Shown piece after piece: positions 20,412 through 53,700 of a DNA stretch of 64,000 bases; the first letter of the stretch is position 1, and each line of letters opens with the position of its first letter. The notes under the pieces are model-generated. The model made no database searches. It saw only the letters and a list, made by a program, of their open reading frames with translations, and was not told where the DNA came from. The DNA comes from Pectobacterium araliae (GTDB lineage Bacteria; Pseudomonadota; Gammaproteobacteria; Enterobacterales; Enterobacteriaceae), in NCBI RefSeq assembly GCF_037076465.1, contig NZ_AP028908.1, forward strand, positions 3,844,001 to 3,908,000, read 5' to 3'. The position numbers and the translations under genes were made by a program.

Positions 20412-20487
20412 GCCCGGATAGCTCAGTCGGTAGAGCAGAGGATTGAAAATCCTCGTGTCCTTGGTTCGATTCCGAGTCCGGGCACCA
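20412..20487 (+). tRNA. pheU: tRNA-Phe (GAA anticodon), pheU locus
   Basis: A 76-base tRNA starting GCCCGGATAGCTCAGTCGG, with anticodon loop ATTGAAAAT (anticodon GAA), T-loop GGTTCGATTCC, acceptor strand TCCGGGC and an encoded CCA end. All stems pair. The 3' end is the integration site of the downstream island. Confidence 0.98.
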
Positions 20488-20645
20488 TCTTTCCTTTTTT
20501 ATGCTTCCTTATCAATCCCTATATTGTTGCGATTCAATAAGTTGGCGTGAAAATCTTTTCCGATGCGTTTTGATTTATCCCTTCGTATCGGGGAATTTGT
20601 GGGTCAGATTGCGGGTCATTCAGTTCGATGAACGGGAGTGACCCT
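20472..20645. repeat. Left copy of island direct repeat (attL plus integrase leader)
   Basis: The repeat begins inside the tRNA-Phe 3' end (CCGAGTCCGGGCACCA) and runs to four bases before the integrase start codon. A second copy at 38888-39060 differs at about seven positions, including one missing G in the CCGGG of the att core. The repeat is much longer than a normal att core, so the right copy is probably the start of another related island rather than only attR. Confidence 0.9.
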
Positions 20646-20648
20646 CAC

Positions 20649-21908
20649 ATGTTAACTGACAGCAAAGTCCGATCCGCGAAACCTCTCGCAAAATCTTACA
20701 AGCTCACCGACTCGCAAGGCTTATACCTGACGGTATCCACCAGCGGCGCTAAGCTATGGTATTTCCGCTACCGTTTCGGCGGTAAAGAAAACCGTCTGGC
20801 TTTTGGCCCCTACCCGCAAACTACACTGGCGGAAGCCCGTGAAAAGCGCGATGCAGCGCGTAAGCTGCTGGCATCCGGCATCAGCCCTTCTCAGCTTCGC
20901 AAAACGAACAACCCCGCCGTTGATGAATCCCGCACCTTTCAGTATGTCGCTCAGACGTGGCACACCAGCAGCCTGAAACTCTGGTCGGACGCGCACGCCG
21001 ATAAAATTCTCACCTGCCTGAAACGCTACGTTTTCCCGTCCATTGGTGCGATGGATATCGCGCAGGTTGAAACCCGCCATCTGGCGCAGTTGGTTAAGGC
21101 AATTGACGATAAAGGCGTGCATGACGTCGCCGGACGGGTACGCCAGCATCTGACCAAAATCATGCGTCACGCCGTCCAGCAGGGTGTCATCAAATACAAT
21201 CCGGCTTACGATTTAGATGGCGTCGTGACCCCGGTTGTGACCCAACATCACCCCGCCCTGCCGCTGAAACGCCTGCCTGAACTGCTGGCGAAGATTGACA
21301 GCTACAAAGGCCGGATGCTCACCCGTCTGGCGCTGGAGCTGAATCTGCATGTTTTCTTGCGATCCAGTGAACTGCGTTTTGCCCGCTGGGATGAATTCAA
21401 CCTGAAAGCGCATATCTGGAGCGTACCCGCCCAGCGCGAACCGGTAAACGGCGTGAGATTTTCAGAGCGTGGCGCAAAGATGAAAGATGAACATCTGGTG
21501 CCGCTGTCACGGCAGGCGGTCGCCCTGCTGAAACAGATTCAGGCGCTTTCCGGCGAATCGGTCTTCGTTTTTCCGGGCGCACATACGCTGAACAAGCCGA
21601 TGAGTGAAAACACCATCAACAAGGCGCTGCGCGTGATTGGCTACGACACCAAAACCGAAATCTGTGGGCATGGTTTCAGAACCATGGCCTGTAGCGCCCT
21701 GAACGAGTCCGGACGCTGGTCAAAAGACGCCATTGAGCGACAGATGAGCCACAAAGAGCGCAACGGCGTGCGGGCGGCTTACGTGCATAAAGCGGAGCAT
21801 CTGGAAGCCAGAATCGAAATGATGCAGTGGTGGTCGGATTATCTGGACGTCAACCGCGAAGGATATGTCGCGCCGTATATCTATGCGCGGAGTCATTCGG
21901 CAGACTAA
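20649..21908 (+). CDS. intS-like: P4-type tyrosine integrase of the tRNA-Phe island
   Basis: A 419-residue tyrosine recombinase of the P4 family. The N-terminal DUF4102 domain (LTDSKVRSAKPLAKSYKL, then GLYLTVSTSGAKLW) is followed by the SAM-like core-binding domain and the catalytic domain. Catalytic residues include Arg in LFLRSSELRFARW-type (VFLRSSELRF), the HGFR box and Tyr in GVRAAYVHK. The start at 20649 gives the usual M-L-T-D-S-K N-terminus, with GGGAG about ten bases upstream; an in-frame ATG at 20628 is less likely. It lies immediately next to its att site. Confidence 0.95.
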   Translation: MLTDSKVRSAKPLAKSYKLTDSQGLYLTVSTSGAKLWYFRYRFGGKENRLAFGPYPQTTLAEAREKRDAARKLLASGISPSQLRKTNNPAVDESRTFQYVAQTWHTSSLKLWSDAHADKILTCLKRYVFPSIGAMDIAQVETRHLAQLVKAIDDKGVHDVAGRVRQHLTKIMRHAVQQGVIKYNPAYDLDGVVTPVVTQHHPALPLKRLPELLAKIDSYKGRMLTRLALELNLHVFLRSSELRFARWDEFNLKAHIWSVPAQREPVNGVRFSERGAKMKDEHLVPLSRQAVALLKQIQALSGESVFVFPGAHTLNKPMSENTINKALRVIGYDTKTEICGHGFRTMACSALNESGRWSKDAIERQMSHKERNGVRAAYVHKAEHLEARIEMMQWWSDYLDVNREGYVAPYIYARSHSAD

Positions 21909-25069: not shown

Positions 25070-25093
25070 CAGCTTATTGGTATACTTACAGGC
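25070..25093 (-). other. Possible third invertase-like half-site at operon end
   Basis: Read on the minus strand, CCTGTAAGTATACCAATAAG resembles the cassette-side half of the left inversion site (CTTGTAGGTAAACCAACG): 16 of 21 bases match from 25077 versus 30988, including the central AA. The second half does not match. It overlaps the stop codon of the nuclease gene. Confidence 0.4.
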
Positions 25094-26351
25094 CATACCC
25101 AGGGTGTTTCGCAACAATTTTCCCAGTAGTATTATCCAGTCGGTACTGCGAAATAGTTCCGTCCACAATGTGCTGGATAACGGCCTGAACTGTAGCCAAT
25201 GGGACATTAAACCACTCTCTTGGAGTATAGATCTGACCATTATGGCTCTTGAGCGTAATGTTGAGCCGACGGGCAGCGAGGAAACCATGTACCAATGCCT
25301 CTAATTTTTGAGCATTGAGGTTAAAACACTGGCTGGTAGCCACAATCCTGACAGGTGCTTCAAGGAAAGTACGGTCTTTCTCGGCATGCTCAATGCGCTG
25401 CTCCACAGTTGTTTCAGTAAAACCAATTTTGTAAAGACTTTGTTTATAAGGAATAAGCGCTGGGTCTGTACTTGTGGTCGCGAGCACATAAACCAAGCCG
25501 GTCGGCACCGCAGTATCTGATGGTTGCAACGTCTTGCCATTGAGTTGCACCTTGCGCCCTTCTTTATCCCTCACCAAACCGTGAGTTAAGGATTGATAGA
25601 GCATGTTCATTTCGGTGCCATTCTCAAATATCAGTCGCAATCGGGCGTTGTAAGTACGGTACTGACCCAGACGTTCACCAGCACTATGGACATATCCCAG
25701 TAACCCATTAAGAATAAAAAAATCGCCTTCAACAATTTTCAATTTATGTGTAAAACGCTCAAGACTAAAAACCCCATTTTTTAAGCCTTTATGCAGGCTA
25801 TAAAACAAGGGCTCGAAACGCTGGAAGTCTTGACACGGCTGGCGCTGAGCAATGTCATCTGGCTGCTCTTTTTTATCAGCAGAAACATACTGTAAGCTGA
25901 AGATATCAGGCTCTGCAAAATTTAATAAACCGTCCTCATCGTCGGCAAAAATATCCTCTAAAGAAGTCACCAGTTCTGATTTGTTGGCATAGGATAATGG
26001 TGTTGGTTCAGCGGCTAGTGGGGTTCTACCATTTTCAATGTGATTTGAAGCCAGAAGCCCTCGGCAATCCAGCGTTTGCAACGAAGCACATATGTTGGGA
26101 TTTTCTTTAATGATGCGCAATCGTCTTGCTAGGCGTTTTTCATCAAGAGAAGCGGCGCTGTTTTCAGTTGGCAGACGGCCATGCCGATCGTAAAACGCGG
26201 CAATTTCAGCAAACTGATTGCCAGCCAAATCGACGGGACTCGCCTTGTGCTTCAGAGGGTGAACATCCAATAAACAGAGATCATCTTCTTCACTGAGGAT
26301 CTCATCTAATGTTGATTTGGCCGCTAATCGCGTTGTCGATAACCGGATCAT
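25086..26351 (-). CDS. GIY-YIG (T5orf172/Mug113) nuclease, YeeC-like
   Basis: A 421-residue protein, third gene of the methyltransferase-helicase-nuclease operon. The C-terminal 120 residues form a GIY-YIG-type domain of the T5orf172/Mug113 group: GLVYVLATT for the first strand, YKIGFTETTVEQRI for the second motif with the conserved Arg, EALVHGFLAARR with the Glu, and REWFNV. The N-terminal 250 residues match no domain I know. It starts one base after the helicase stop with AGGAG upstream, so the two are coupled. Architecture and order resemble Bacillus subtilis YeeC (from memory). Confidence 0.8.
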   Translation of the reverse strand: MIRLSTTRLAAKSTLDEILSEEDDLCLLDVHPLKHKASPVDLAGNQFAEIAAFYDRHGRLPTENSAASLDEKRLARRLRIIKENPNICASLQTLDCRGLLASNHIENGRTPLAAEPTPLSYANKSELVTSLEDIFADDEDGLLNFAEPDIFSLQYVSADKKEQPDDIAQRQPCQDFQRFEPLFYSLHKGLKNGVFSLERFTHKLKIVEGDFFILNGLLGYVHSAGERLGQYRTYNARLRLIFENGTEMNMLYQSLTHGLVRDKEGRKVQLNGKTLQPSDTAVPTGLVYVLATTSTDPALIPYKQSLYKIGFTETTVEQRIEHAEKDRTFLEAPVRIVATSQCFNLNAQKLEALVHGFLAARRLNITLKSHNGQIYTPREWFNVPLATVQAVIQHIVDGTISQYRLDNTTGKIVAKHPGYGL

Positions 26352-26352
26352 T

Positions 26353-28362
26353 TTACTGCTCCTGATTAGCCAACTTCTGTTGCTTCATTTTGCGGATAAA
26401 CGCCAGCGCTTCGGCATAACGCTTCTCAATCGGATCACTGGCATTCAGCGATGGCTCTCTCTGTTGTTCTCGGGTGAACTGCTTGATCTTAGGCCAAAGG
26501 ATAATTGCCTCTTCTTCGGAGACCTGCGATCGGCTGGCACTTACTGCTTCCTGAATGGTTTTCAGCATAGGCGCAGTTACCGATTTAGAGATAATTTCAT
26601 AAGCACCATGGAACGGATTCACCGCATCTATCAGGTCTATATCCAGATTATCAATACAGATGAACTTTTCACCCATCTTCAGGAACTGCTTACCTGCGAC
26701 ACTGTTTACTGACTCTTCTTCAGCGCCATTCGCCATATCCACATTGGCATCCTGCGGCAGGTCTTCCCAATCAACCACGCCCCCTTTCTGAGTGATCAAC
26801 ATACTTTGTAATACTCCTATGCGTACCTGTTCCTGCTCTTCGTCGGTCAAATCTGGGTAAAGCGTCTGAATCACAGCAGGCAAAGCCACTTGAGTGAAAG
26901 TTTCGGGGGGGATGGTTTCACTAATTGTCTCTTTGACCAACTGTTCGTTAGCCATCAGAGTCGCCATAATTTCGTTCTTGTCGCTGTTCAGAATATCCAA
27001 TACTTTCGGGGATACCGGTAAGGTTGCGGAATCATCTACAAGCAGAGTATTAGGTGGTAGTGGCTGACCGTCCCATTGAGAACGAGGCTTGAACTGGATG
27101 TTGGGAGCCAGGATCTGCTCCATCAATAACGACGTGGTGATCGCCTTAAGCATATTATTGACCGATGCCTTCACATCATCATCCTGTGCATCAGGTTGAG
27201 CGATGAGATTGGTAAACTGAGCATGCGTTTTTCCCGTACAATCTCGGGTCGCCCGGCCGATAATCTGCACAATTTCTGTCAGAGAGCTGCGATAGCCAAT
27301 CGTCAACACATGCTCACAGCAAGGCCAATCAAACCCTTCTTTCGCCATGCCTAAGGCGATGATGATGTCCATATCATCAACCGCTTTGATATTACGTAAA
27401 TACGCCTGGACTTTGGATCGTTCGTTAGGATTATCATCAACCAGATTGGCTAATTTGAGCTCACAGCCATTTTTTCCCGCAATATAATAAACCCCAGTCA
27501 GAGGATCGCGTTTTATCACGCTGCCAATCACATCAAGGATAGAATCAACTTCTCCATATTTATCTTTGGTCGATTCACCGGAATTAACATTCGGGATATG
27601 AATAATCGTTTTTTTGCTGGTATCGAGTACCGTGGGCAATGCATCAATATAACGCCCCTGATAAAAATGATAACCAATACCCAGAGATTTAAGATATTGA
27701 TAGCCATTCAACTGCTCGTAATAGGTGTATGTCACCTTAGTGAACTGCGCCTCATCCTCAGGCAACAAGATCGGCACGGTATCGCCTCGGAAATATGATC
27801 CGGTCATGGCAACGATATGCACACTCGATTTTTTTATGAGCTCATCAATAAGATTACCAAGCCGATTATCACCATCGGCAGAAACATGGTGAAACTCATC
27901 AATAGCCACCAGGCAATTATCGAAATCTGTTACCACTAATTTATCAAAGGCAAAACGCAAGGTCGCATGAGTACATATCAGAATACGTTCGTTGCCATGC
28001 ATAAAGCGTTGGAAAGCATGAACCTTACCCGCTTCCCCACCATCCACACACAGATTGTTCTCGGATGTAACACGCCAGTCAGCAAAAAAACCTTGTTCGG
28101 TTAAATTGGTCTCCTGAAAAGAGCCACCGATAGACTTTTCCGGAACGGCGACAATCACTTTTCGCACGTTCTGATTTTCCAGTTTATCCAGCCCCAGAAA
28201 CATTAACGCACGCGATTTCCCCGAAGCCGGAGGGGCCTTGATCAATAGATACTGACTATTTCGTTCAGCAAAAGCTCGGGCCTGCATTTCACGCATTCCC
28301 ATCGAATTAAGGCCGGTACTTTGCCCCGTCTGACCATACTCAACGTGCAATAAATTATTCAT
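26353..28362 (-). CDS. DEAD/DEAH-type helicase, YeeB-like
   Basis: A 669-residue superfamily 2 ATPase. Motif I is APPASGKSRA near residue 44, motif II is IDEFHH near residue 153, motif III is MTGSY, and motif VI is QIIGRATRD near residue 375. It presumably translocates on DNA and works with the methyltransferase encoded upstream and the nuclease downstream. The start ATG overlaps the end of the methyltransferase frame by eight bases, indicating a tight operon. In the present cassette orientation its promoter would be disconnected, so expression is probably low. Confidence 0.85.
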   Translation of the reverse strand: MNNLLHVEYGQTGQSTGLNSMGMREMQARAFAERNSQYLLIKAPPASGKSRALMFLGLDKLENQNVRKVIVAVPEKSIGGSFQETNLTEQGFFADWRVTSENNLCVDGGEAGKVHAFQRFMHGNERILICTHATLRFAFDKLVVTDFDNCLVAIDEFHHVSADGDNRLGNLIDELIKKSSVHIVAMTGSYFRGDTVPILLPEDEAQFTKVTYTYYEQLNGYQYLKSLGIGYHFYQGRYIDALPTVLDTSKKTIIHIPNVNSGESTKDKYGEVDSILDVIGSVIKRDPLTGVYYIAGKNGCELKLANLVDDNPNERSKVQAYLRNIKAVDDMDIIIALGMAKEGFDWPCCEHVLTIGYRSSLTEIVQIIGRATRDCTGKTHAQFTNLIAQPDAQDDDVKASVNNMLKAITTSLLMEQILAPNIQFKPRSQWDGQPLPPNTLLVDDSATLPVSPKVLDILNSDKNEIMATLMANEQLVKETISETIPPETFTQVALPAVIQTLYPDLTDEEQEQVRIGVLQSMLITQKGGVVDWEDLPQDANVDMANGAEEESVNSVAGKQFLKMGEKFICIDNLDIDLIDAVNPFHGAYEIISKSVTAPMLKTIQEAVSASRSQVSEEEAIILWPKIKQFTREQQREPSLNASDPIEKRYAEALAFIRKMKQQKLANQEQ

Positions 28363-30988
28363 TATGGTTTCCTGCGTTGGCCGGTGTTCTGCTCTTTCTT
28401 GGTTTAGCCTGAGTTACTGTCAGTTTCTGCGTCAGTGCTTCATAACGTGCCAGCAGGCAGCTTAAGCGGTCGGCTGCATCTTTGAATGGGCGCTCACGGT
28501 AAAGTCGATCCACCGCGGTATCGAGAGCCTGATGGGCGGTTAACAGCTTTTGCGGCATCTTATCGGGATCATAGAGTTCAGCAAGTGTACGTCCTAGGAA
28601 TTCTTCACGGATTAAAATCACGTCTTCGGCGAGCATCTCGATTTGTTTGCGTTGTATGGATGTCACTTCAGGCCAAGGAAAAGGGTTGTAAACGACTGAA
28701 GCGGAATAGCGATAGTCACTTTTCAACCTACCAGCAACCAGTCTCATCCAGTCGTTATGCATTAACGAAGAAAGTATTGCGAATTCGTATAACGTGCCGT
28801 CAGGGATAATATAATTTGCATTTGTTGAAATTACTTCTGCATTAAAAAAACCAAGAGGAACATAAATACGGCGTTCAGAAGAAACACTTGGAACAAGAAT
28901 GTAACTTCCTGATGCTGGATGTCTGTTTTCGTCAAACAGATGCGGGCTATTCGATTTTTTTCTTGTGCCAGATTTGGAGCTTTTAAGACGGGCATTTTTA
29001 ACAGCAAGAACCCTTTTCCCGACTAATGGCATTGATTCTAAATCAGCAACACTCGCCTCAACCAACCATAAGCACCAACGTTCTTTTCCATTAAAAAACT
29101 CATCGGCGCCTAATACCTTTTTGAGCCAGCGTTCAGCTTGCGGTTCTTGTTTGAGTAATTCATCACGTTCAAAACGATCTAACAGTAGATAACCACCATC
29201 AGTAGGTTTATTTCCAAAAAATAATGGAGGTACACCTTTTATTAACGGGGAGTTTCGTGGAATAATTGCCAGCCGGCTTCCTTCTACTAAGTATGGGCTG
29301 ATATTGTCGACCATTTTGCAATGCCATTCGCCTTGTACGTATTGATAAAGTCTGCTCTTTTCTGAACTCGCTGAAAGCCCAATAATGATTACATGTACCG
29401 CCGCTTTATCACGGGCATTATTTGCCCATGGAAATGTTGGGTATGCAAAATGGATATTTAGCCCGAGGGAAAAAATTGGCGGCCACAGTGTCGCAACCTG
29501 CTCTCCCTGACAAATGGAATTGGTTGCTACCAGAGCCAGCTCAGCACGTGAATTTTGAATATATTGCGCCCCTTTCCAGAACCAGCAAGCAACAAAATCT
29601 AAGGTTCCTAACGCTTTGAAGTCGCTAAATACAGCCTGCATATCAGCACGTTGCTCATCTGAACGTCCCAGTGTTCCTAAAAATGGCGGGTTACCGATTA
29701 CATACACTTCGTCATCAGCTTGCTTAGGACAGACCTGATGCCAGTCAAGACGCAAACTATTACCACTATGAATATTTCCACTTTCACGTAACGGCAATGC
29801 CGGTGGCGCGAAACCAAACGCTTTTTCCCACTGACAATTCACCTGGTGCTCCGCCAGCCAGAGGGATAACCGAGCAATCTGGCAGGCGAAATCATCAATC
29901 TCAATGCCGTAAAACTGTGACAGGTGAAGACCGCTCATTGAAAATGTTTGAGGTTCCAGCTCACGCAGAGCCTCAATCACTTCAATTTCCAGATTGCGTA
30001 ACGCTTTGTAGGCCACAATCAGGAAATTACCGGATCCACATGCAGGATCGAATACTTTGATCTTGCCGAGTCGCACCAGTAACGCTTTAAGCCCCTTGGC
30101 ATTGTTACGTTGTTTATCCAGTTCAACGCGTAACGGATCAAGAAACAGGGGCTGAATCACCTTCATGATATTGCGATATGAGGTGTAGTGCTGCCCTAAG
30201 CGGCTGCGCTGTTCCACATCAATCACGGCCTGGAACATGCTGCCGAAAATGTCTGGGTTAATCTCACTCCAATTCATGGTTCCGCATTCGAGTAAGATCT
30301 TGCGCCCCTTTTTGCGCAGTTCGGGAACCGGTTCATCGCTGGCAAACAATCCACCATTTACATACGGAAATGCTGCAAGATGGGCGGGTAGCCTTTGTCG
30401 CTGCGGGCTGTCAGGCTTCTCATCTAACACACCAAATAACTGATAAAGAAATGAATCCAGATCGCTGCCATCTTCTTCGGTGAAACTTTTGACAGCAGAC
30501 GTGAACTGGGCGAGGGCAAAAATACCGGTGTCTTCGGCAAAAAGGCAAAATAACAAGCGAGTCAGGAAGACGTTAAGGGCATGGATATCTTCCGACTTAC
30601 TGAGGTCATTGTGGACTCGGATGAGGTCAAACAATCTCCCCATCTTCTCGGCGGCCTTCACATCAGCAGGGTTTTCACTGCTGATAATGGCTTTCTCAAG
30701 GCCCACTAACGGCAAAAAGAAACCATAGTTGCTATGTAACTCGTCCATTTCAATGTCGAGCCGCTCTTTACTTGCGGTATCCCAAGCCAGAAAGCGAGTA
30801 AAATCAGTGATCAGCACGAAGCGGATCTTATTTTTAGCTATCGCTGGGTCATCAATGCACTGATTTAGCAGAGTCTCAAGCTCTTCTCCTTCCGCAGCAG
30901 ACTGAAACCAGAGTTTATTCTTGATACCGACCTGACCAGGCTCTTTAGCGATGTTACGGCTACTGCCCTGACGCACCTGTGTAATCGT
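28355..30988 (-). CDS. Body of YeeA-like DNA methyltransferase, severed from its start (phase OFF)
   Basis: This frame encodes 877 residues of a class I adenine-type DNA methyltransferase of the YeeA/type IIG group. Motif I is VFDPACGSGNF and motif IV is GNPPF; the target-recognition region and a C-terminal helical part follow. The nearest usable start is a GTG at 30976 inside conserved sequence, and the frame runs into a stop at about 31033 upstream. The missing N-terminus (start codon and 37 codons) lies on the plus strand at 31054-31164. Inversion at the AA cores would give ...F-P-K-S joined to T-I-T-Q-V-R-Q, in frame, for a 914-residue protein. Confidence 0.88.
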   Translation of the reverse strand, partial: TITQVRQGSSRNIAKEPGQVGIKNKLWFQSAAEGEELETLLNQCIDDPAIAKNKIRFVLITDFTRFLAWDTASKERLDIEMDELHSNYGFFLPLVGLEKAIISSENPADVKAAEKMGRLFDLIRVHNDLSKSEDIHALNVFLTRLLFCLFAEDTGIFALAQFTSAVKSFTEEDGSDLDSFLYQLFGVLDEKPDSPQRQRLPAHLAAFPYVNGGLFASDEPVPELRKKGRKILLECGTMNWSEINPDIFGSMFQAVIDVEQRSRLGQHYTSYRNIMKVIQPLFLDPLRVELDKQRNNAKGLKALLVRLGKIKVFDPACGSGNFLIVAYKALRNLEIEVIEALRELEPQTFSMSGLHLSQFYGIEIDDFACQIARLSLWLAEHQVNCQWEKAFGFAPPALPLRESGNIHSGNSLRLDWHQVCPKQADDEVYVIGNPPFLGTLGRSDEQRADMQAVFSDFKALGTLDFVACWFWKGAQYIQNSRAELALVATNSICQGEQVATLWPPIFSLGLNIHFAYPTFPWANNARDKAAVHVIIIGLSASSEKSRLYQYVQGEWHCKMVDNISPYLVEGSRLAIIPRNSPLIKGVPPLFFGNKPTDGGYLLLDRFERDELLKQEPQAERWLKKVLGADEFFNGKERWCLWLVEASVADLESMPLVGKRVLAVKNARLKSSKSGTRKKSNSPHLFDENRHPASGSYILVPSVSSERRIYVPLGFFNAEVISTNANYIIPDGTLYEFAILSSLMHNDWMRLVAGRLKSDYRYSASVVYNPFPWPEVTSIQRKQIEMLAEDVILIREEFLGRTLAELYDPDKMPQKLLTAHQALDTAVDRLYRERPFKDAADRLSCLLARYEALTQKLTVTQAKPRKSRTPANAGNHNE

Positions 30989-31001
30989 TGGTTTACCTAC
31001 A
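30976..31001 (-). other. Left inversion site (Hin-like crossover site)
   Basis: On the minus strand, GTAAACC-AA-CGATTAC is an imperfect dyad around an AA core at 30988-30989, like hix/gix sites. It is inverted relative to the matching site at 31152-31177. Confidence 0.8.
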
Positions 31002-31165
31002 AGCGGTATATAGTTATGGCAAAAAACAAGTTATGCATTCTGAAGGATCATGTATGGCAGTGAATCAGGCGAGGATTTTCGAGCAGCTTGAACAGATAAC
31101 CCACGAGCTGAATCGTGATGAATTTATTTATGGTTTTATGGCCGCTTTTGATTTTCCTAAATCAA
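30988..31165. promoter_or_regulatory. Invertible cassette with promoter side and methyltransferase N-terminus
   Basis: About 176 bp lie between the two inverted sites. The cassette carries a leader, AAGGA at 31043-31047, ATG 31054 and codons 1-37 of the methyltransferase on the plus strand, pointing away from the body. I could not fix a -35/-10 pair with confidence. Flipping would connect this start to the minus-strand operon. Confidence 0.85.
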
Positions 31166-31266
31166 CAATTATGCAGATGAGCGTTATCTGGCGATCTGGC
31201 ATTCTCCGTGCTTTTAGCAGGAGGAAATGGCGTGTTAATAGGCTATGTCAGGGTATCAACAAATGA
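31054..31266 (+). CDS. Methyltransferase N-terminal stub in OFF orientation
   Basis: ATG 31054 with AAGGA six bases upstream opens a 70-codon frame. Residues 1-37 (MAVNQARIFEQLEQ ... AAFDFPKS) are the typical N-terminus of YeeA-like methyltransferases, and residues after the crossover (I-M-Q-M-S-V-I-W) are unrelated. In this orientation the frame ends at 31266, overlapping the GTG start of the invertase at 31232, so translation of the stub may be coupled to the invertase. In the other orientation the same codons become the start of the full enzyme. Confidence 0.85.
   Translation: MAVNQARIFEQLEQITHELNRDEFIYGFMAAFDFPKSTIMQMSVIWRSGILRAFSRRKWRVNRLCQGINK
31152..31177 (+). other. Right inversion site (Hin-like crossover site)
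   Basis: TAAATC-AA-CAATTA is an imperfect dyad with its AA core at 31164-31165. About 17 of 22 bases match the left site read on the other strand (TAAAYCAACRATTAYRCAGRTG). Confidence 0.8.
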
Positions 31267-31801
31267 CCAAAACACCGATTTACAACGCGAAGCGTTGGAA
31301 CGGCTAGGATGTGAACAGATATTTGAAGAGAAAATCAGTGGGACTACAGAGAAAAAACCGAAACTCAATAGTGCTCTGAAGGCATTACAGGCGGGGGATA
31401 CGCTCGCGGTGTGGAAACTGGATCGATTGGGACGAAGCATGAGACAACTTGTCAAATTAATGGACACGTTGCAACAACGCGGGATTCATTTTCGTAGTGT
31501 GACCGATTCCATAGATACCGCCACGCCAATGGGAAGGTTTGTTTTTCACATTATGGGGGCGATGGCTGAAATGGAACGAGAACTTATTGTCGAGCGAACC
31601 CGCGCAGGTTTGGCTGCCGCTAGGGCTAAAGGACGTATAGGCGGACGCAGACCCAAGCTGACGCCGGAGCAATGGGCGCAAGCCGGACATCTTCTGGCTA
31701 ATGGCGTCCCGCGACAGCAGGTGGCACTGATTTATGACGTAGCAGTAGATACCTTATATCGAAAATTCCCTGTCGGCAGAAAACTGAGTGCCAAAACGTA
31801 A
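31232..31801 (+). CDS. Serine recombinase (Hin/Pin-type DNA invertase)
   Basis: A 189-residue small serine recombinase. The catalytic Ser is in YVRVSTNDQNTDLQ; the Arg residues lie in WKLDRLGRSMRQL and in the MERELIVERTRAG segment. A C-terminal helix-turn-helix (RQQVALIYDVAVDTLYRK) follows GRIGGRRPKL. The GTG at 31232 follows AGGAGGAAA and gives the classical M-L-I-G-Y-V start; a longer frame from 31208 is not needed. Its position next to a pair of Hin-like inverted sites indicates that it flips the neighbouring cassette. A strong terminator lies downstream. Confidence 0.95.
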   Translation: MLIGYVRVSTNDQNTDLQREALERLGCEQIFEEKISGTTEKKPKLNSALKALQAGDTLAVWKLDRLGRSMRQLVKLMDTLQQRGIHFRSVTDSIDTATPMGRFVFHIMGAMAEMERELIVERTRAGLAAARAKGRIGGRRPKLTPEQWAQAGHLLANGVPRQQVALIYDVAVDTLYRKFPVGRKLSAKT

Positions 31802-31829
31802 CGTTGAAAAGATTAAGTAATCTATTTTT

Positions 31830-31865
31830 GGTAAACCTGTCTTCCAGCAGAGAGACAGGTTTACC
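31830..31865. terminator. Bidirectional terminator between invertase and res
   Basis: A perfect 13-bp stem, GGTAAACCTGTCT / AGACAGGTTTACC, has a 10-base loop and ATTTTT on its left. It lies between the convergent invertase and type III res genes. Confidence 0.82.
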
Positions 31866-31917
31866 ACACTGATTATCCGGCCAATTCACCACGAGCCCAT
31901 ACCGCTACAGCAGATAG

Positions 31918-34900
31918 TCAGATATTCCACTGTTCAGGTACTGAAACCGCATACTCGATACCAATTTCTCTAAAGTGTGCCTCGGCAGACTTGATTTTGG
32001 CATTTTCGGAGGGTCTCCTTTTTTGTTCATCCATAGTGCTCTTGGTTTCACGCACCATGTAGATTCGATCCTCACCTTCTTCGGATTTGATGATGGCCCA
32101 GTCGGGGTTATAAGGGCCAACTGGCGTGTCGATCTGGAATCTTGGCGGTAGCTTCATAAACAGCCTGATATCCTCGCGGTGATCGAGAAACTCGGCGAAC
32201 TTCCGCTCCGGGCTGTCCGGCCCGCCATCAAACACGACGTAATCAAAATCGGTTTTCTCGGGGTGTTCGACACGGTACAAATGCTCTTTGAAGAAATCCT
32301 TTTCGGCAAGGCCATCGGCTTGCAACTCGCGGAGTTCATAGATGGAGCCGCCGATCTTTTCATACTGAACACCCTCCACAATGACACGCTGTAGCTCACC
32401 CTCTACGCAACGGCGTACCATCGCCATAAAGTCGTTCGGATTGGCAATGAACTCATCCAATCTTCCGCTACCAATGAGAATATCCACCAGCGTCTTGCGT
32501 GTAAGAGACGTACCTTGCTGCAACTCACCGATAATGTCCGGCAGATCATAACTGCCTTTGAGATCGACAGTTCGTGCCCCCAGTTCTAGCCCTTGCGTGC
32601 CGCCACGTAGCACCCTGACACCAGCACGAGTGACATCAATACGTAACGGCTGGATTTTCGGTTCAGCCTTGATCGCCTTTATACACGCCTCAACCAGCAT
32701 AGGGTGTTTAACTGTCACCCGATAAGTAGTTTTCTGGCTGATAGCGCTCCAAAGCTTCTCAAAATCCGGCGAGGCGTAGAGCTCTTTATTGAATTTGCGC
32801 TTAGCCCGCGCACTTACAGGTTTCACATATTTCTCAATACCCGCATTAAGGATGCACCGGATAATATCTGATTCGTAAGGCCTGAGATCATCAGGCAAAT
32901 GTAATGAGAATCCTTCTGCATCCGGCAGAAACATGGACGTTGTCTTACCATCCTTGATGAATCCTGCGTTTTCCAGATGCTTGAAGATGGCAGAAGATAC
33001 CTTAAACCCCAGCATATCATCGGTCATCACGCCATGAATATCTCGCTTCGTCAGCCTGGAGAATTCATTGGGTCGCACCTGTCCGATGGCTACGCCCGCA
33101 TCTTTGTATTCGGCTTGCAGATTCTCAGCGAAAGTAGCATAAGACTCATTAGCAACCACCGTGAGTTGTGCAACACTGCGGTCGGTAACGCGCTCATAAC
33201 CTTTTACTGTTTTCGCTACAGGCAGACGCAGACCACGCCCCAGCGTCTGTCGACGTTCCGTGTCCGCGCCCATTTCACGCAGCGTACAAATCTGAAACAC
33301 GTTGGGATTGTCCCAACCCTCGCGCAGTGCGGAATGGCTAAAGATGAAGCGCACAGGCTCATCACCATCCAGCAAGCGCTGCTTATCTTGCATGATGAGT
33401 TTGTAAGCGTCATCATCTTTGACCGTCGTACCAGATGAATCCACAAAGGTCGTGCCACCACGCATTTTCAATTGGGAAAAATACGCCCGCCGTAACTCGC
33501 CAGGATCCTGCGGCAGTAATTTTTGGTAGACGTCAGACTTGCTACGCTCTTCTCTGAACACCTCATCGAACCACTTGGTAAACTCGCCGTTTGCGTCTTC
33601 GTTATTGACCCCGTCGCCGAGAAAACTCGCCACTTTGTCTACGAAAAACAGACTCAATACTTTAATCCCCTTCGGGTGCAACATGGCTTCCTTGCGCAAA
33701 TGCTCACGCACGGTTTCCCGAATCATCTCCTTGTAAATCGCGCCCGTTGCGCCCCCGAGGGATTCGCCTTCATGCAGCAGGTTTCCGTTCGGCGTCAGTT
33801 CAATACTGGCTGGTTCACCGAAAGCGGCGATGCTCAACGCATTAATACGCCAGCCTGCATAAGCAGGATTTCCAGTGACGTCTGACAATTCCTGATGCGG
33901 TTTGACCTTTTTGCTACGACGCGCGATAGAGCCATCGGCCTTGCGGCAAGCCAGTTCAAGCTTCGCGGCTTTCGTGTCTTTCACTTCGAGCAACTTGACG
34001 TAAGGAGCCACATCCGCACCGTGCTGTGCGACTTCAGCCACGACGATCTGTTTCACCAAACCGAGATCGTGCGCGTCAACCGGATCGAGCCGATAGACCA
34101 GGTTTCGCCGCTGCTTATGCGTAGCTGAGTAGCGTAGTGTGAATACAGGATCAAAATCACCCACAGCAGACTGCGATAGCAGTGATTCCATATTTTGTGG
34201 TTCATCCATGATCACCACAGGATGCGTGCCTTTCAGGTAATCCAACGGACGCAAGCCATTGAGCTTGTCATAAGGTTTGTGAATGATGCGCGCATTCTTT
34301 TTTTCATTTTTATTCTTGTCACTACGTATCGCATCAATCGTCATCACCAGTATTTGCACGTTGGTTGCAGTAGCAAAAGCCTGTACTTCCTCGGCCTTGT
34401 CGCCTCTGTAGACATTCGCATCGAAAGGCTCCGCCGGATAGAGGCTACGGAAGTGCTCGCGCATCAGGCGAATACTGGTGTTCACGCCTTCACGAATGGC
34501 GACGCTGGGAACCAGAATGATAAATTTGGTAAAGCCATATTTCTTTGCAAGTTCGAAAACGGTACGCAGATAAACGTAAGTTTTGCCCGTACCGGTCTCC
34601 ATTTCGATGTCGAAATCCAGTTTGCCATCAACCAGCTTTTCGCTGACCTCCAACCCGTTGCGATCCTGTACCGTTTGTAAGTTAGCAAGGATAGTGCCTT
34701 CATCCAGTACCAAATTATTGCCGATAGCGCCGATCTCCTGCTCAATACCTAAATCCAGCTCACCTTCCCGTCTGGCAACGCTGCCACGCAAGGCAATCGC
34801 GAGCTTGTCGGCATCCTTTGGCTGACCATCGAACAAATCCACCACGGCGTTGATGGCATCAAGCTGATATTGCTGATGCGAATCAAATTGAAAGCCCGTA

Positions 34901-34920
34901 TTTTGAGAATGACTGTTCAT
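31918..34920 (-). CDS. res: Type III restriction enzyme, Res subunit
   Basis: A 1000-residue type III restriction subunit. The superfamily 2 helicase motif I is ETGTGKTYVY, motif II is VIMDEPQNM, motif III-like is RYSATH, and motif VI is QTLGRGLRLP. A C-terminal PD-ExK-type endonuclease is visible as NPDWAIIKSEEG followed by VRETKS. The ATG at 34920 overlaps the mod stop by one base (TGATGA); a GTG at 34923 is also in frame. With Mod it forms the cleavage complex that acts on pairs of unmethylated sites. No disabling lesion is visible. Confidence 0.94.
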   Translation of the reverse strand: MNSHSQNTGFQFDSHQQYQLDAINAVVDLFDGQPKDADKLAIALRGSVARREGELDLGIEQEIGAIGNNLVLDEGTILANLQTVQDRNGLEVSEKLVDGKLDFDIEMETGTGKTYVYLRTVFELAKKYGFTKFIILVPSVAIREGVNTSIRLMREHFRSLYPAEPFDANVYRGDKAEEVQAFATATNVQILVMTIDAIRSDKNKNEKKNARIIHKPYDKLNGLRPLDYLKGTHPVVIMDEPQNMESLLSQSAVGDFDPVFTLRYSATHKQRRNLVYRLDPVDAHDLGLVKQIVVAEVAQHGADVAPYVKLLEVKDTKAAKLELACRKADGSIARRSKKVKPHQELSDVTGNPAYAGWRINALSIAAFGEPASIELTPNGNLLHEGESLGGATGAIYKEMIRETVREHLRKEAMLHPKGIKVLSLFFVDKVASFLGDGVNNEDANGEFTKWFDEVFREERSKSDVYQKLLPQDPGELRRAYFSQLKMRGGTTFVDSSGTTVKDDDAYKLIMQDKQRLLDGDEPVRFIFSHSALREGWDNPNVFQICTLREMGADTERRQTLGRGLRLPVAKTVKGYERVTDRSVAQLTVVANESYATFAENLQAEYKDAGVAIGQVRPNEFSRLTKRDIHGVMTDDMLGFKVSSAIFKHLENAGFIKDGKTTSMFLPDAEGFSLHLPDDLRPYESDIIRCILNAGIEKYVKPVSARAKRKFNKELYASPDFEKLWSAISQKTTYRVTVKHPMLVEACIKAIKAEPKIQPLRIDVTRAGVRVLRGGTQGLELGARTVDLKGSYDLPDIIGELQQGTSLTRKTLVDILIGSGRLDEFIANPNDFMAMVRRCVEGELQRVIVEGVQYEKIGGSIYELRELQADGLAEKDFFKEHLYRVEHPEKTDFDYVVFDGGPDSPERKFAEFLDHREDIRLFMKLPPRFQIDTPVGPYNPDWAIIKSEEGEDRIYMVRETKSTMDEQKRRPSENAKIKSAEAHFREIGIEYAVSVPEQWNI

Positions 34921-36932
34921 CACGCTGTCCTCAGATCAATACCTTTGCTTCTGGCATATTGAGCAATATTGGTTTTCAATTCATCATCGCCGTGGAAAGC
35001 ATCTTCCAGAACGATCAGGCGCGTAGGTTCGGCATTCACCAGTTCCCGCAATTGTTCCAGTGTGGGCTTGGTTCGCTCGTTTAAGTAGGCCAGCAGGCGT
35101 GGCTTATCGGTATCGCCAACTATGGCATGGATGTCCAGCCCGGCGATAGTCTGCATACTGAGATGTTCGTTCAACGAATAGCCAAGTTTCAACAGCAGCT
35201 CAGTAAGCAGATCATCGAGACTGGCATCATCAACGCTACTACCACGCAGGTCGAGCAAATGCTGGGCTAGCTTGTCAGGTTCGATATCGCTGGTGACGCG
35301 CCATTTGGTGAAATTGGTGTCCGTCAGCTTATAGGCGCGAAAGCCGGTATCTATATTGCTTTCTGCAACATCGGATTTTATTTTCTCGCCCGCTAGTTCG
35401 ATGCGCTTGCGTGAGATATCAGCAATAGTGGCAAAGCCTGCCTTGCGCGCTTCTGAAGCTTCAGGAGTAGGTTCCGGCAGTTGTACCATGATAAAACGAC
35501 GTTTGCCGTTGTCTTCAGCATTAAGCTGCATTACGGCATGAGCGGTGGTGGCACTGCCAGCGAAGAAATCCAGTACAGTAAAATTATCTTTTTTTGAAGC
35601 TATAGTGAGAATGTGCTCAATTAACCGAACAGGCTTAGGACTATCAAAATAAGCTTTATCATCAAATAGAGCTTTTACTTCCTGTTTAGCTTCTTGATTA
35701 TGCCCTACATCTGAATGCATCCAGATAGTATTTGGTCTAAGTCCATCTTGAACCTCAGATAAGAAAGTTTTGAGCCTTGGTGTACCACTCCCCTCTTTAC
35801 CGAACCAAATGCGTTTACCTCTCACCAGCTCGTCGAATTTTTGTTTACTTACGCTCCAAAAACGCCCATCTGGGGGTGGGCAAACTCTACCACTAGGTGT
35901 AGTTATGTCATAGCGAAGCTTATCTGTACCTGATTTAGCAGATAAAACAACAGAGGTCCAAATCCCTCTAGGGTCGTTATCAGGATTCGAGTAACCGGCT
36001 GGTATTTCCTTTCCCCTTGGAAGTAAGTTCAGTACCCACGAATTTTCAATACTTGTCAGAGAGCTCGACTTTACATAGCACAATATATGATCATGCATTG
36101 TGGAGAAGTACCTAGCATCATTCGAACGACTAAACTTTTTTTGCCAAATTATATTTGCAACAAAATTATCCTCACCAAAGACCTCATTGCAGAGTTTCTT
36201 GAGATTATCCGCCTCATGATCATCAATACTAATAAAAATCACCCCATCATCAGCAAGCAGATTACGGGCTAACTTAAGGCGCGGATACATCATGTTCAGC
36301 CAGTTGGAGTGATAACGCCCTTCGGTCTCGCTGTTGGTGGAAACTTTCTTACCTTCCTCATTCACCTGCCGCGTCCACTCCAGATAACTGTCCAGCCCCT
36401 CCTTGTAGTTATCGGGATAAACAAAATCCTTGCCGGTGTTATAAGGGGGATCGATGTAAATCAGTTTGACCTTGTTGTGATAGTGTCGTTGCAGAATCTT
36501 TAGTACCTCAAGGTTGTCTCCCTCAATAAACGCATTCTGCGTTGTGTCCCACTCTTTCGAATTGGCGAAGTCTGGTTTCAGTGTTGCAGTCGTCGGTGCT
36601 TGTGCGGCACGCAGCGCACGCTTTTTGCCCGGCCAGAACAGGCCAAAGCGCTCGTTACTGTCAGCCACATCATCAGCCAGCAGCTCACGGAGCTTTTCAA
36701 CATCCAACTTACCATCAGCAACAGCCTCTGGAATCAGTTCGGCAAGCTGACCAGCCAGTTCGGTGCGAAAATTCGGGGTTGTGCTCGGGATCTCAAAGAG
36801 GTCGTTGCTGATATCAGAAAATGATGAACGAGACACCTTCTTCTGGCCCTCGGCCAAAGCATCAACACTGCAACGTTGTTCCGCATTTTCTTTCTGTTTA
36901 GCGCTATATTCAGTAATACGTTCATTTGCCAT
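34920..36932 (-). CDS. mod: Type III DNA methyltransferase, Mod subunit
   Basis: A 670-residue beta-class adenine methyltransferase. Motif IV is IYIDPPYNTGKDF near residue 160, and motif I, DFFAGSATTAHA, lies later, the order typical of Mod proteins. The target recognition region lies between (about residues 230-440) and is the part that usually varies. The frame extends seven codons upstream to 36953; I prefer 36932 (MANERITEYSAKQ), although neither start has a good Shine-Dalgarno. A 17-bp exact inverted repeat brackets the upstream region. No simple-sequence repeat suggestive of slippage is visible. Confidence 0.93.
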   Translation of the reverse strand: MANERITEYSAKQKENAEQRCSVDALAEGQKKVSRSSFSDISNDLFEIPSTTPNFRTELAGQLAELIPEAVADGKLDVEKLRELLADDVADSNERFGLFWPGKKRALRAAQAPTTATLKPDFANSKEWDTTQNAFIEGDNLEVLKILQRHYHNKVKLIYIDPPYNTGKDFVYPDNYKEGLDSYLEWTRQVNEEGKKVSTNSETEGRYHSNWLNMMYPRLKLARNLLADDGVIFISIDDHEADNLKKLCNEVFGEDNFVANIIWQKKFSRSNDARYFSTMHDHILCYVKSSSLTSIENSWVLNLLPRGKEIPAGYSNPDNDPRGIWTSVVLSAKSGTDKLRYDITTPSGRVCPPPDGRFWSVSKQKFDELVRGKRIWFGKEGSGTPRLKTFLSEVQDGLRPNTIWMHSDVGHNQEAKQEVKALFDDKAYFDSPKPVRLIEHILTIASKKDNFTVLDFFAGSATTAHAVMQLNAEDNGKRRFIMVQLPEPTPEASEARKAGFATIADISRKRIELAGEKIKSDVAESNIDTGFRAYKLTDTNFTKWRVTSDIEPDKLAQHLLDLRGSSVDDASLDDLLTELLLKLGYSLNEHLSMQTIAGLDIHAIVGDTDKPRLLAYLNERTKPTLEQLRELVNAEPTRLIVLEDAFHGDDELKTNIAQYARSKGIDLRTA

Positions 36933-37074
36933 ACTGATAATCCGGTGTGACATCAGTCAGAATCAGCAGGCATCCTCGCTCTGAAGTGCTAAATTAAGTT
37001 TTGCTATCGACTCAATGACTCGTAACATTCATATGTTATGTACAACAATCACTAAAACACACCGGATTATCAGT
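36933..37074. repeat. 17-bp exact inverted repeat pair upstream of mod
   Basis: ACTGATAATCCGGTGTG at 36933-36949 is repeated as its exact reverse complement at 37058-37074, enclosing 108 bp. The left arm abuts the preferred mod start. The loop contains the palindromic TAACATTCATATGTTA. Operators for a looping repressor or an invertible promoter are both possible. Confidence 0.75.
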
Positions 37075-50707: not shown

Positions 50708-53700
50708 ATGCTTCGGCGCCTTTTTGCAACGTTACGCACACCTCGCCACCACACAACTGCGGCTGACGCGGCTTCATCAACACCACTCGGGTTCGCTCTG
50801 GAGGCACGCATGATGTTTGACGGAGCGGTAGCCGCCACCGCCACGCAGGCCGATGCGGCACAGAACACCAGTGAGGCGATGCAGGCAGCCAACAGCGCGG
50901 CACACGCGACGGATGACTCGCAGACCCATAACAACGATCAAACACAAAATGGGCAAGACGATCACGGCGTTACACCGGATGATGCCACCAGCAATATTGC
51001 CGTCGCCGGTGAAGCACCACGCAAAGAAGTAGTGTTTATCGATACCTCGCTCACCGATTATCAAACGCTGGTGAACAATGTGCCGAGCAGTATTGAGGTT
51101 GAACTATTTGATGGTAGTAAGGATGGCCTCAGCCAACTGGCACAGTGGGCGCAGGACCACAATGGTTATGACGCGATCCACATTCTGAGCCACGGTGCAG
51201 AAGGGGAAATTCAGCTAGGTAGCCTGAAACTGGATAGCGATACCGCTAACACCCGTGCCGCCGATCTCGCCACCTTGGGTGCCGCGCTAACTGACTCAGG
51301 CGATCTAATGATTTACGGCTGCGACGTGGCACAGGATTCCGGGCAAAGTTTTGTCACGCTGCTTGCACAGTTGACAGGAGCCGATGTCGCCGCCTCCAGC
51401 GATTCCACCGGAGCAAGCGCCCTCGGAGGAGACTGGGATCTGGAAAGCCACAGTGGCTCGATAGAAACCGGTGCGTTACAGATGGACAGCTATCGGCACA
51501 CACTGGATGTTAGCGGCACCACAGCAGATTTTGTGATTAACGGTGTTTCCTATTCCACTGGCACGGTCGGTTCTGGTGTGGAACTGTTTCTTGATGGCGG
51601 GCTCGATGTCGACAGTTCCAACTGGTACGCCGATATCGATCCCACCACTTCCACCATCACCATGACCATGCGTAACGGCATCTACGCCAGCGACGGACTG
51701 ACCTCGTTTGATTTTACCTTCTCCGGCAGCACGCTACTTGCCATTACCTCGGTCACCAAAGACAATGCGGCCACCACCAGTGCGGCAGATTTCTCTGCCA
51801 CGGTCAACGGCAACGATAAAACCATCACCTTCCATATCAACACCAATGAAACCGGTGGTGACGGCGTGCTGGTGTGGCACTTTACCTCCACCAATACCGG
51901 CGGCAGTACCGATACGGCACCTAGCGTGGTCGCCATCGGAGCCAACCCGACCTACACCGAAAACGGTGCGGCTGTCGGCCTGTTTACTGGTGTCAGCGTC
52001 GACACCCATGACACCGGACAGACCTTCGCCAGTGCAGTTTTTACGGTCAGCAACGTGGCAGGCAACACGGAATATCTGACCCTTCACGGCATCAATGTGG
52101 CACTGAGCAATGGTAACAGCGTCTCGCTCGGCAGTGGCTATGGCTCCGCCAGCGTTAGCCTGAGCGGCGGGATTGCTACGGTCAGCATCACGGGTGCAAC
52201 GCTGAGTAACAGCGACATGGGCAGCCTGTTGTCCGGCATGACGTATAGCAATAGCAGCGACAACCCCGGCAATGCCACACGCACAGTGACGCTGACGCAA
52301 CTGACCGATTCCGGCACCAGTAACAATACCGTTGCGCCGAATATCAGCAGCGCCATCACCGTGGTGCCGGTGAACGATGCACCGACCGATATTACACTCT
52401 CTGCCACCACCTTTGCGCAATCGCTCGGCAGCAATGGCACTGTCGCCACCCTGACAACGACCGATGTGGATTCCAGCGTCTTTACCTACAGTCTGGTGAG
52501 TGGCAGCGGCAGTACCGATAACGCGCTGTTCACCATTAGCGGCAACACCCTAAAAGCAGTCAACGCCACTGGCATGGCGGCGGGCACCTACTCGGTGCGC
52601 CTGCAAGTGTCTGACGGTGCCGCTACCTATGACAAAGTGGTGTCATTGGTGGTGGTGGATGATATCGCCCCCACGTTTGACCAGTCACCCAGCGTCTCCA
52701 ACGCCACCGTGGGCGGTTTTAACCTAAGCGGCAGCCTCACTGAAACTGGCAATGTGTATTATGTGGTGGTGGCTGACGGTGCCAGTGCTCCAACCGCGAC
52801 GCAAGTGATCGCCGGGCAAACCGCCACAGGCAGCAGCGCCACTGCCTCCGGCAGCCAGGTGCTGGGTTCTTCGCCATTCAACTTTAGCTTTACCTTGACC
52901 GGCCTTGCCGCCAGCACTGCGTATGATGTGTATGTGGTGGCTAGGGACAGTGCAGGTAATAATACGGTCAGTGTAGTTAAGGTTGATGCCACAACGACCA
53001 GCGCGGGCACAGCGCCGACACTCAGCGCCACCGGCAACAATCCGGTATTTATCGGCGGTATGGCGGGTTCGATTGATCTGTTCAGCGGCGTCAGCGCCAA
53101 TACCAACGACAGCAGCCAGACCTTTAGTTCGCTAACGTTGACGGTTTCCAATGCCACCGACAGCGGCGAATTTATCAACGTTGGCGGCAATAACATCAAC
53201 CTGAGCGCCAACAATTCCGGCACCCTGACCGGTATCGGTAACTATAGCGTGACACGCTCCGGTAATACCGTCACGCTGCAATTGAGCGGCATGAGCGCCA
53301 GTAACAGTGAGATGGCCGGGGTAGTAGATGGCTTGCGCTATGGTAATACCAGCGCCAGCGCCACTGCGGCTACGCGTGCTGTCACCCTGAGTGCTGTCAG
53401 CGATAGTGGCAGCAGTAACAACAGCACAGCACTCAACCTGACCTCAACGGTGAACGTGCTTGCCAGCAACAGCGCATTGTATGTGACCGCCGGGGATGAT
53501 ACTGGCGACAATGCAACTTTCGGCAGTTCGGTGCAAGAGGATGCCAATGACGGCGGCGGGCTCAGCCTGCGTGAAGCCCTGTATTGGGCGAATAACACAG
53601 CGGGTATTGACCGTATTGTGTTCCAAACCGACGTGACGCTGGCCAATTCCCTTCTGTCGCCGACCGACAGCGTGCTGATTGACGGTCAGAGTTTCACCCT

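Follow-up and report, generated by a model that had tools for sequence, protein, structure and literature searches.

The locus described here, a YeeA/MmeI-type methyltransferase gene split across a putative invertible cassette beside a serine invertase gene, lies in a 64,000-nucleotide stretch (hereafter the window) of the Pectobacterium araliae genome, a single contig of 4.66 Mb (NZ_AP028908.1, positions 3,844,001 to 3,908,000). Its closest described counterparts among inversion systems are the Mu gin/G segment, the P1 cin/C segment, and e14 pin, which likewise have a related invertase and inverted sites with a central dinucleotide. However, the Mu, P1, and e14 segments exchange the C-termini of tail-fibre genes, whereas the window cassette is 176 bp long, contains a methyltransferase start and N-terminus, and is bounded by degenerate sites. 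Inversions cutting into coding sequence, as in the window, are reportedly also seen in the intragenic or gene-altering invertons of Chanin et al. in 2024 and Milman et al. in 2023. The gene content resembles the DnmA(YeeA)-YeeB-YeeC set, with an MmeI-type methyltransferase, a helicase, and a T5orf172 protein in the same order, as far as the available passages of PMC9973331 describe it. Four relatives of this set (L005, L007, L010, and L011) differ from the window in having an uninterrupted methyltransferase gene, with no invertase match in the available DNA. On/off inversion of a restriction system (hsd) is known in Mycoplasma pulmonis, judging by a reference title in PMC11892184, and PglX heterogeneity controls BREX phase variation according to the accessible part of PMC7513527. 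M. pulmonis hsd and PglX of lactobacilli are similar to the window locus in that a restriction or methyltransferase gene is changed by rearrangement of the DNA. To our knowledge, both involve other enzyme families and other recombinases, with neither a tail-fibre-type invertase nor a YeeA operon.

The reading favoured here, with a probability of roughly 85%, is that a Gin/Pin-type invertase and a crossover site of the type found upstream of such phage genes became attached to a YeeA-YeeB-YeeC-type operon and reversibly invert the 176-bp cassette, which would make the operon a phase-variable defence. The invertase, presumably the adjoining one, would pair both sites and exchange the ends at their AA cores, moving a ribosome-binding site, a start codon, and the first 37 methyltransferase codons. 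In the ON orientation, the exon would be fused in frame to the gene body to give a 914-residue methyltransferase; in the OFF orientation, assigned to the window, the body would have neither its start nor the first half of the MmeI_N domain, while the leader and exon would face the invertase. The sequences themselves show the anatomy of the locus, the occurrence of the two joins in related alleles, and contig edges fitting mixed-orientation cultures. Inversion at the AA cores, proposed in the initial annotation of the window, is supported because the same allele is known joined and unjoined, the ON joins fall at the predicted residue, contigs end at predicted edges, and the invertase keeps its spacing to the site.

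On the minus strand of a genomic island, the methyltransferase body, a superfamily 2 helicase, and a T5orf172/MUG113 protein form one cluster, as in DnmA(YeeA)-YeeB-YeeC. The body reading frame is open from 30988 down to 28355. It was initially described as having no start codon, which holds for the native start and the first 37 codons; an in-frame GTG (codon 30976-30974) nevertheless opens an 873-residue open reading frame (ORF), with no Shine-Dalgarno sequence visible by eye. The missing N-terminus (MAVNQARIFEQLEQITHELNRDEFIYGFMAAFDFPKS), hereafter the stub, was correctly placed behind a Shine-Dalgarno sequence on the plus strand. It points at the invertase, and the OFF state assigned earlier is correct. 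The genome has a single invertase match. Joining the two parts at the AA core gives KSTITQVRQ and 37 + 877 = 914 residues, as had been predicted; P0018, a naturally joined Klebsiella relative, has exactly this length. The body matches the Pfam MmeI_N profile only from position 83 and so has nothing of positions 1-82, which are present in P0018 (match from position 2). With the PADLOC type IIG model PDLC03598, the body begins at profile position 68 and P0018 at 17. Among the best 120 of 7,997 matches to the methyltransferase, 110 carry the N-terminus encoded by the stub, the exceptions being P0009 to P0017 and P0019. The mean top-residue frequency was 0.85 for residues 1-41 and 0.79 for residues 42-120 (109 joined homologues among those listed); given this conservation, a GTG-started body would be without a conserved half-domain. 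In the P0018-MmeI alignment, the PD-ExK nuclease motif of MmeI/type IIL enzymes was not found in the methyltransferase N-terminal domain: E and K of IEMK (MmeI 79-82), which we take to be catalytic, stand opposite Q and S, where the aligned stretch reaches its edge. Over its first 90 residues, the L003 body is identical to that of the window, and over its whole length it is 89% identical; the later parts, probably including the target recognition domain, thus differ between carriers.

The OFF arrangement was found in the window and in L002, L003, L008, and L009. These are all five of the searched genomes that proved to contain the module, and two belong to other genera. The ON join is present in two partial database proteins at the predicted residue (KSTITQVRQ): P0008, named P. 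versatile, begins RDEFIYGFMAAFDFPKSTITQVRQ, and P0132, named P. punjabense, begins MAVNQARIFEQLEQITQELNRDEFFYGFMAAFDFPKSTITQVRQGSSRNIAKESGQVGIRNKLW. P0132 is identical at 39/39 residues to the OFF stub P0130, whose tail (...STIMQMSVI) runs into the invertase flank, and at 36/36 residues to the OFF body P0017, named P. brasiliense, versus 30 to 32/36 for ten other bodies. Thus, the allele-specific residues of P0132 match both an OFF stub and an OFF body, and one allele is known in both arrangements, albeit from different strains. For comparison, P0132 matches the stubs P0128 and P0129 at 37/39 residues, and P0018 matches P0132 at 36/39. Twelve proteins were found with the stub: three with the OFF tail (P0128, P0129, and P0130), two with a KSTIT-type join (P0132 and P0134), five other joined relatives (P0133, P0135, P0136, P0137, and P0139), and two with other tails (P0131 and P0138). 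The initial annotation had pointed to related genomes as the place for the 914-residue form and both orientations; the joined P0018 and the ON proteins were indeed found, and all five module genomes were OFF.

Two entries showed unusual joints. P0009, named P. versatile (895 residues), begins MNLFMVLWPLLIFLNQPTITQ, corresponding to a MISREGISTERED join in which the stub is read from ATG 31118 in another frame. The joint falls at another AA of the left site, four bases upstream of its core (31118-31165 to 30987-30991), which places the exon out of frame, and the first 40 residues of P0009 are as predicted from that joint. Either a misregistered exchange or an error of scaffolding may account for it. 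P0131 comes from a metagenomic contig of 1,195 bases, and its stub runs after the AA core into RLWQNAQ..., which is neither body nor known invertase flank. By eye, this tail could be another Din-type half-site, a hint of exchange with a third site.

In a culture with both orientations, de Bruijn assembly is expected to end contigs at the crossover. The ON-specific assembly edges were computed from the window sequence for k=127 and k=55, settings that we assume for the database assemblies, and were compared with protein entries and listed contigs, whose clusters hide members. The k=127 ON edge is 250 bp long; its ATG stands at offset 14, leaving 78 codons and 2 nt, and the listed contig of P0132 is 250 bp long and its protein has 78 residues. 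The k=55 edge starts at 31112 with R21 as the first complete codon, which is where P0008 starts. The body edge common to both orientations starts CAACG and reads TITQVRQ, the start of both P0011 and P0015, the latter from a cluster whose longest contig is 1.4 Mb. These edges at the predicted nucleotides suggest that the segment flips, probably within the sequenced cultures, and the fit of P0132, P0008, P0011, and P0015 is strong, albeit indirect, evidence for such switching.

The two inverted AA-core dyads reported in the initial annotation are present; their AA cores read on the minus strand at 30988-30989 and on the plus strand at 31164-31165. As in Din-family systems, two inverted sites of about 26 bp with a common core dinucleotide flank a segment, the left site being a poor one, and both orientations occur, OFF in five genomes and ON at the protein level only (P0008 and P0132). 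A site matrix was built from seven Mu, P1, and e14 half-sites, and 63,975 window positions were scored. The right site ranked 8th overall and 2nd among the 8,502 positions with an AA/TT core, with a score of 5.7; the left site scored -1.9, versus 29 to 31 for the phage sites used to build the matrix. Identities between the right site and the e14 pin site amount to 9/12, 2/2 (core), and 8/12, and the distance from core to invertase start is 67 nt in the window, e14, and Mu alike. Among the best DNA matches listed, those of phages and E. coli pinE-type loci start at 31149 to 31157, i.e., at the right site, and others at 31197. The invertible alleles encode S-T (TCA ACG) at a place where most of the family encodes A-T (78% of the 109 homologues listed have A), and in four joined relatives the core position is occupied by GA or TA, never by AA; hence, the coding sequence seems to have been adapted to the switch at the AA core. 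These four relatives had been considered as hidden ON forms and were rejected on account of GA or TA in place of AA. The coordinates of all features are listed in Table 1.

Table 1. Features of the split methyltransferase locus and its surroundings (window coordinates).
Feature	Position	Strand	Remarks
tRNA-Phe	20412-20487		start of island
Integrase	20628-21908		at island start
YeeC-like protein, T5orf172/MUG113 (GIY-YIG-type) domain	25086..26351	-	
YeeB-like helicase	26353..28362	-	8-nt overlap with methyltransferase end
YeeA/MmeI-type methyltransferase body without native start	28355..30988	-	in-frame GTG at 30976
Left crossover site TGTAGGTAAACC-AA-CGATTACACAGG	30976..31001	-	outer half is methyltransferase coding sequence
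Candidate invertible cassette (176 bp) between both crossovers	30989..31164		OFF orientation; same orientation, identical or nearly so, in four other genomes
TATAGT, -10-like by eye	31009..31014	+	possible cassette promoter, weak candidate
Methyltransferase N-terminal exon (stub), ATG and 37 codons	31054..31164	+	Shine-Dalgarno GAAGGA 31042-31047; joined relatives have the same N-terminus
Right crossover site TTTTCCTAAATC-AA-CAATTATGCAGA	31152..31177	+	inner half is stub coding sequence; outer half like the e14 pin site
Gin/Pin-type serine invertase	31232..31801	+	GTG 31232 behind AGGAGG is the better start; ORF from GTG 31208
Stretch at position of annotated cin enhancer (nt 19-90 of gene)	31250..31321	+	putative enhancer
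Type III res/mod pair	31918-36953		after invertase

The adjoining gene was initially assigned to the Hin type. It does encode a serine invertase, with Resolvase and HTH_7 domains as in the Gin/Hin/Pin/Cin group, but its closest solved structure is that of Gin (3uj3, E 4e-84), not Hin; gamma-delta resolvase was matched at E 1.4e-27. Among invertase clusters, P0140 shares 98% identity with the window protein and the next one 78%. The start of the gene falls within the read-through ORF of the exon, which ends at 31266. The stretch at the enhancer position is identical at 53/72 positions to each of cin, gin, and pinE, being coding sequence at the same time. A Fis motif scan detected nothing in 31250..31321 and nothing in cin either.

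Several observations weigh against the favoured reading. The left site is weak, with a score of about -1.85 and rank 102 of 63,975 (17 of 8,502 with an AA/TT core). All five genomes with the module are OFF, and ON is known only from database proteins; as DNA, the ON arrangement was not found in 25 genomes of the genus, in family samples of 392, 343, and 392 genomes, or in a sample of 393 relatives. It was also not found in the genera to which G038 (1 genome) and G365 (9 genomes) belong, or in plasmids, phages, and E. coli; the viral contigs searched gave no match at all. The two later family draws (343 and 392 genomes) yielded only G038 and G365 again, and the genome contig scan gave three loci, all without an invertase. 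P0132, P0130, and P0017 do not share a source, each being from another strain or species, and are known as protein entries only. P0010, named Lonsdalea britannica, starts one codon after the predicted edge, an inexact fit to the window sequence. A scan of 30800-32000 for a sigma-70-type consensus promoter gave no match, so control of the whole operon is putative. Finally, the B. subtilis version of the gene set is called a relic and gave no protection against the three phages tested, according to PMC9973331. V. crassostreae homologues are reported there to matter for some phages. Relatives of the gene set are located in defence islands.

The missing promoter match speaks for the foremost rival, in which the inversion is real but switches only the methyltransferase N-terminus, with the promoter outside the cassette, the helicase and nuclease always transcribed, and the GTG-started body perhaps working as a short form. 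Four database proteins, P0012, P0014 (Pectobacterium colocasium), P0016, and P0017, are annotated from the same internal GTG codon as the 873-residue ORF. This rival is nevertheless regarded as doubtful, because such a body has nothing of MmeI_N positions 1-82, residues 1-41 are as conserved as the following ones, and a nuclease without its methylase would be expected to harm the cell. Under the favoured reading, a promoter would lie in the cassette, and the helicase and nuclease would be silenced together with the methyltransferase. An attractive possibility is a single cassette leader that would drive the invertase while the locus is OFF and the operon while it is ON. The purpose of the switch may be phase-variable phage defence.

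The uniform OFF state of the five genomes would also be expected of a decayed locus, in which insertion of the invertase broke the gene, OFF became fixed, and the stub is a relic. This is improbable, since ON joins of the same alleles exist, the contig edges fit mixed cultures, and the stub frame and Shine-Dalgarno sequence are intact in all five OFF genomes and likewise in the Lonsdalea stub P0129, which is more diverged. An invertase of the Din family can use the sites of another, and the cassette might accordingly be flipped in trans by a prophage Din-type invertase, the adjoining gene being inert; the P0131 tail, by eye perhaps another half-site, would suit this. Such flipping is still less probable than decay: at E <= 0.001 the invertase matches nowhere else in the window genome, and the right site and invertase keep the phage spacing and occur together in five genomes. 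An assembly artefact, suggested by nothing beyond the general weakness of assemblies with small inversions, was rejected because four other genomes show the same arrangement, as do the stubs P0128, P0129, and P0130.

The slot beside the invertase (31825-36930) is variable. It contains the type III res/mod pair in the window, L056, and L057; in L054 and L055, whose identity to the window stops at 31824, it contains a protein of 631-638 residues with methylase-like motifs (by eye) and a 323-residue protein. A perfect 14-bp hairpin with a 10-nt loop and no T run after it is located between the invertase and res (31829-31866). It was considered as a third crossover site and dropped, as its arms have no AA core between them and it is missing from L054/L055. 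Farther along, a 2,926-residue ORF (50708-59488) with Ig- and cadherin-like repeats and a DUF4347 start lies near ABC-transporter and HlyD-type genes; it probably encodes a large protein that is secreted or displayed at the surface, with its exporter alongside.

No YeeA/MmeI-type operon switched by inversion was found in the literature accessible as titles, abstract starts, and passages, with two surveys of gene-altering inversions outside reach, which does not establish its absence from print. The novelty claimed in the initial annotation is narrowed: inversion of a restriction system as such is known, and what appears new is the combination with a YeeA operon, whose start codon and half of whose N-terminal domain would be turned by an invertase of the tail-fibre type. 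A bolder version, which seems to us somewhat better than an even bet, is that such an invertase has been captured to serve an anti-phage operon of the chromosome as its dedicated on/off switch. A single short inversion would then move promoter, ribosome-binding site, and start codon along with half of the N-terminal domain, and methylation, helicase, and nuclease would be lost and regained jointly. One crossover site would have been built from conserved methyltransferase codons, those of FPKSTITQ (TCA ACG, which yields the AA core), in place of FPKATITQ, the form found in most of the family.

Contigs or proteins ending exactly at the crossover of a small inversion suggest a general way to find phase-variable genes. 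If the reading is true, the locus would be a molecular case of bet-hedging in phage defence, in which a possibly costly restriction-like operon stays on in part of the population, and a defence operon would be governed by the kind of switch that phages use for host range. It would also follow that some YeeA methyltransferases of soft-rot bacteria described as 'truncated' or 'partial' are probably no pseudogenes.

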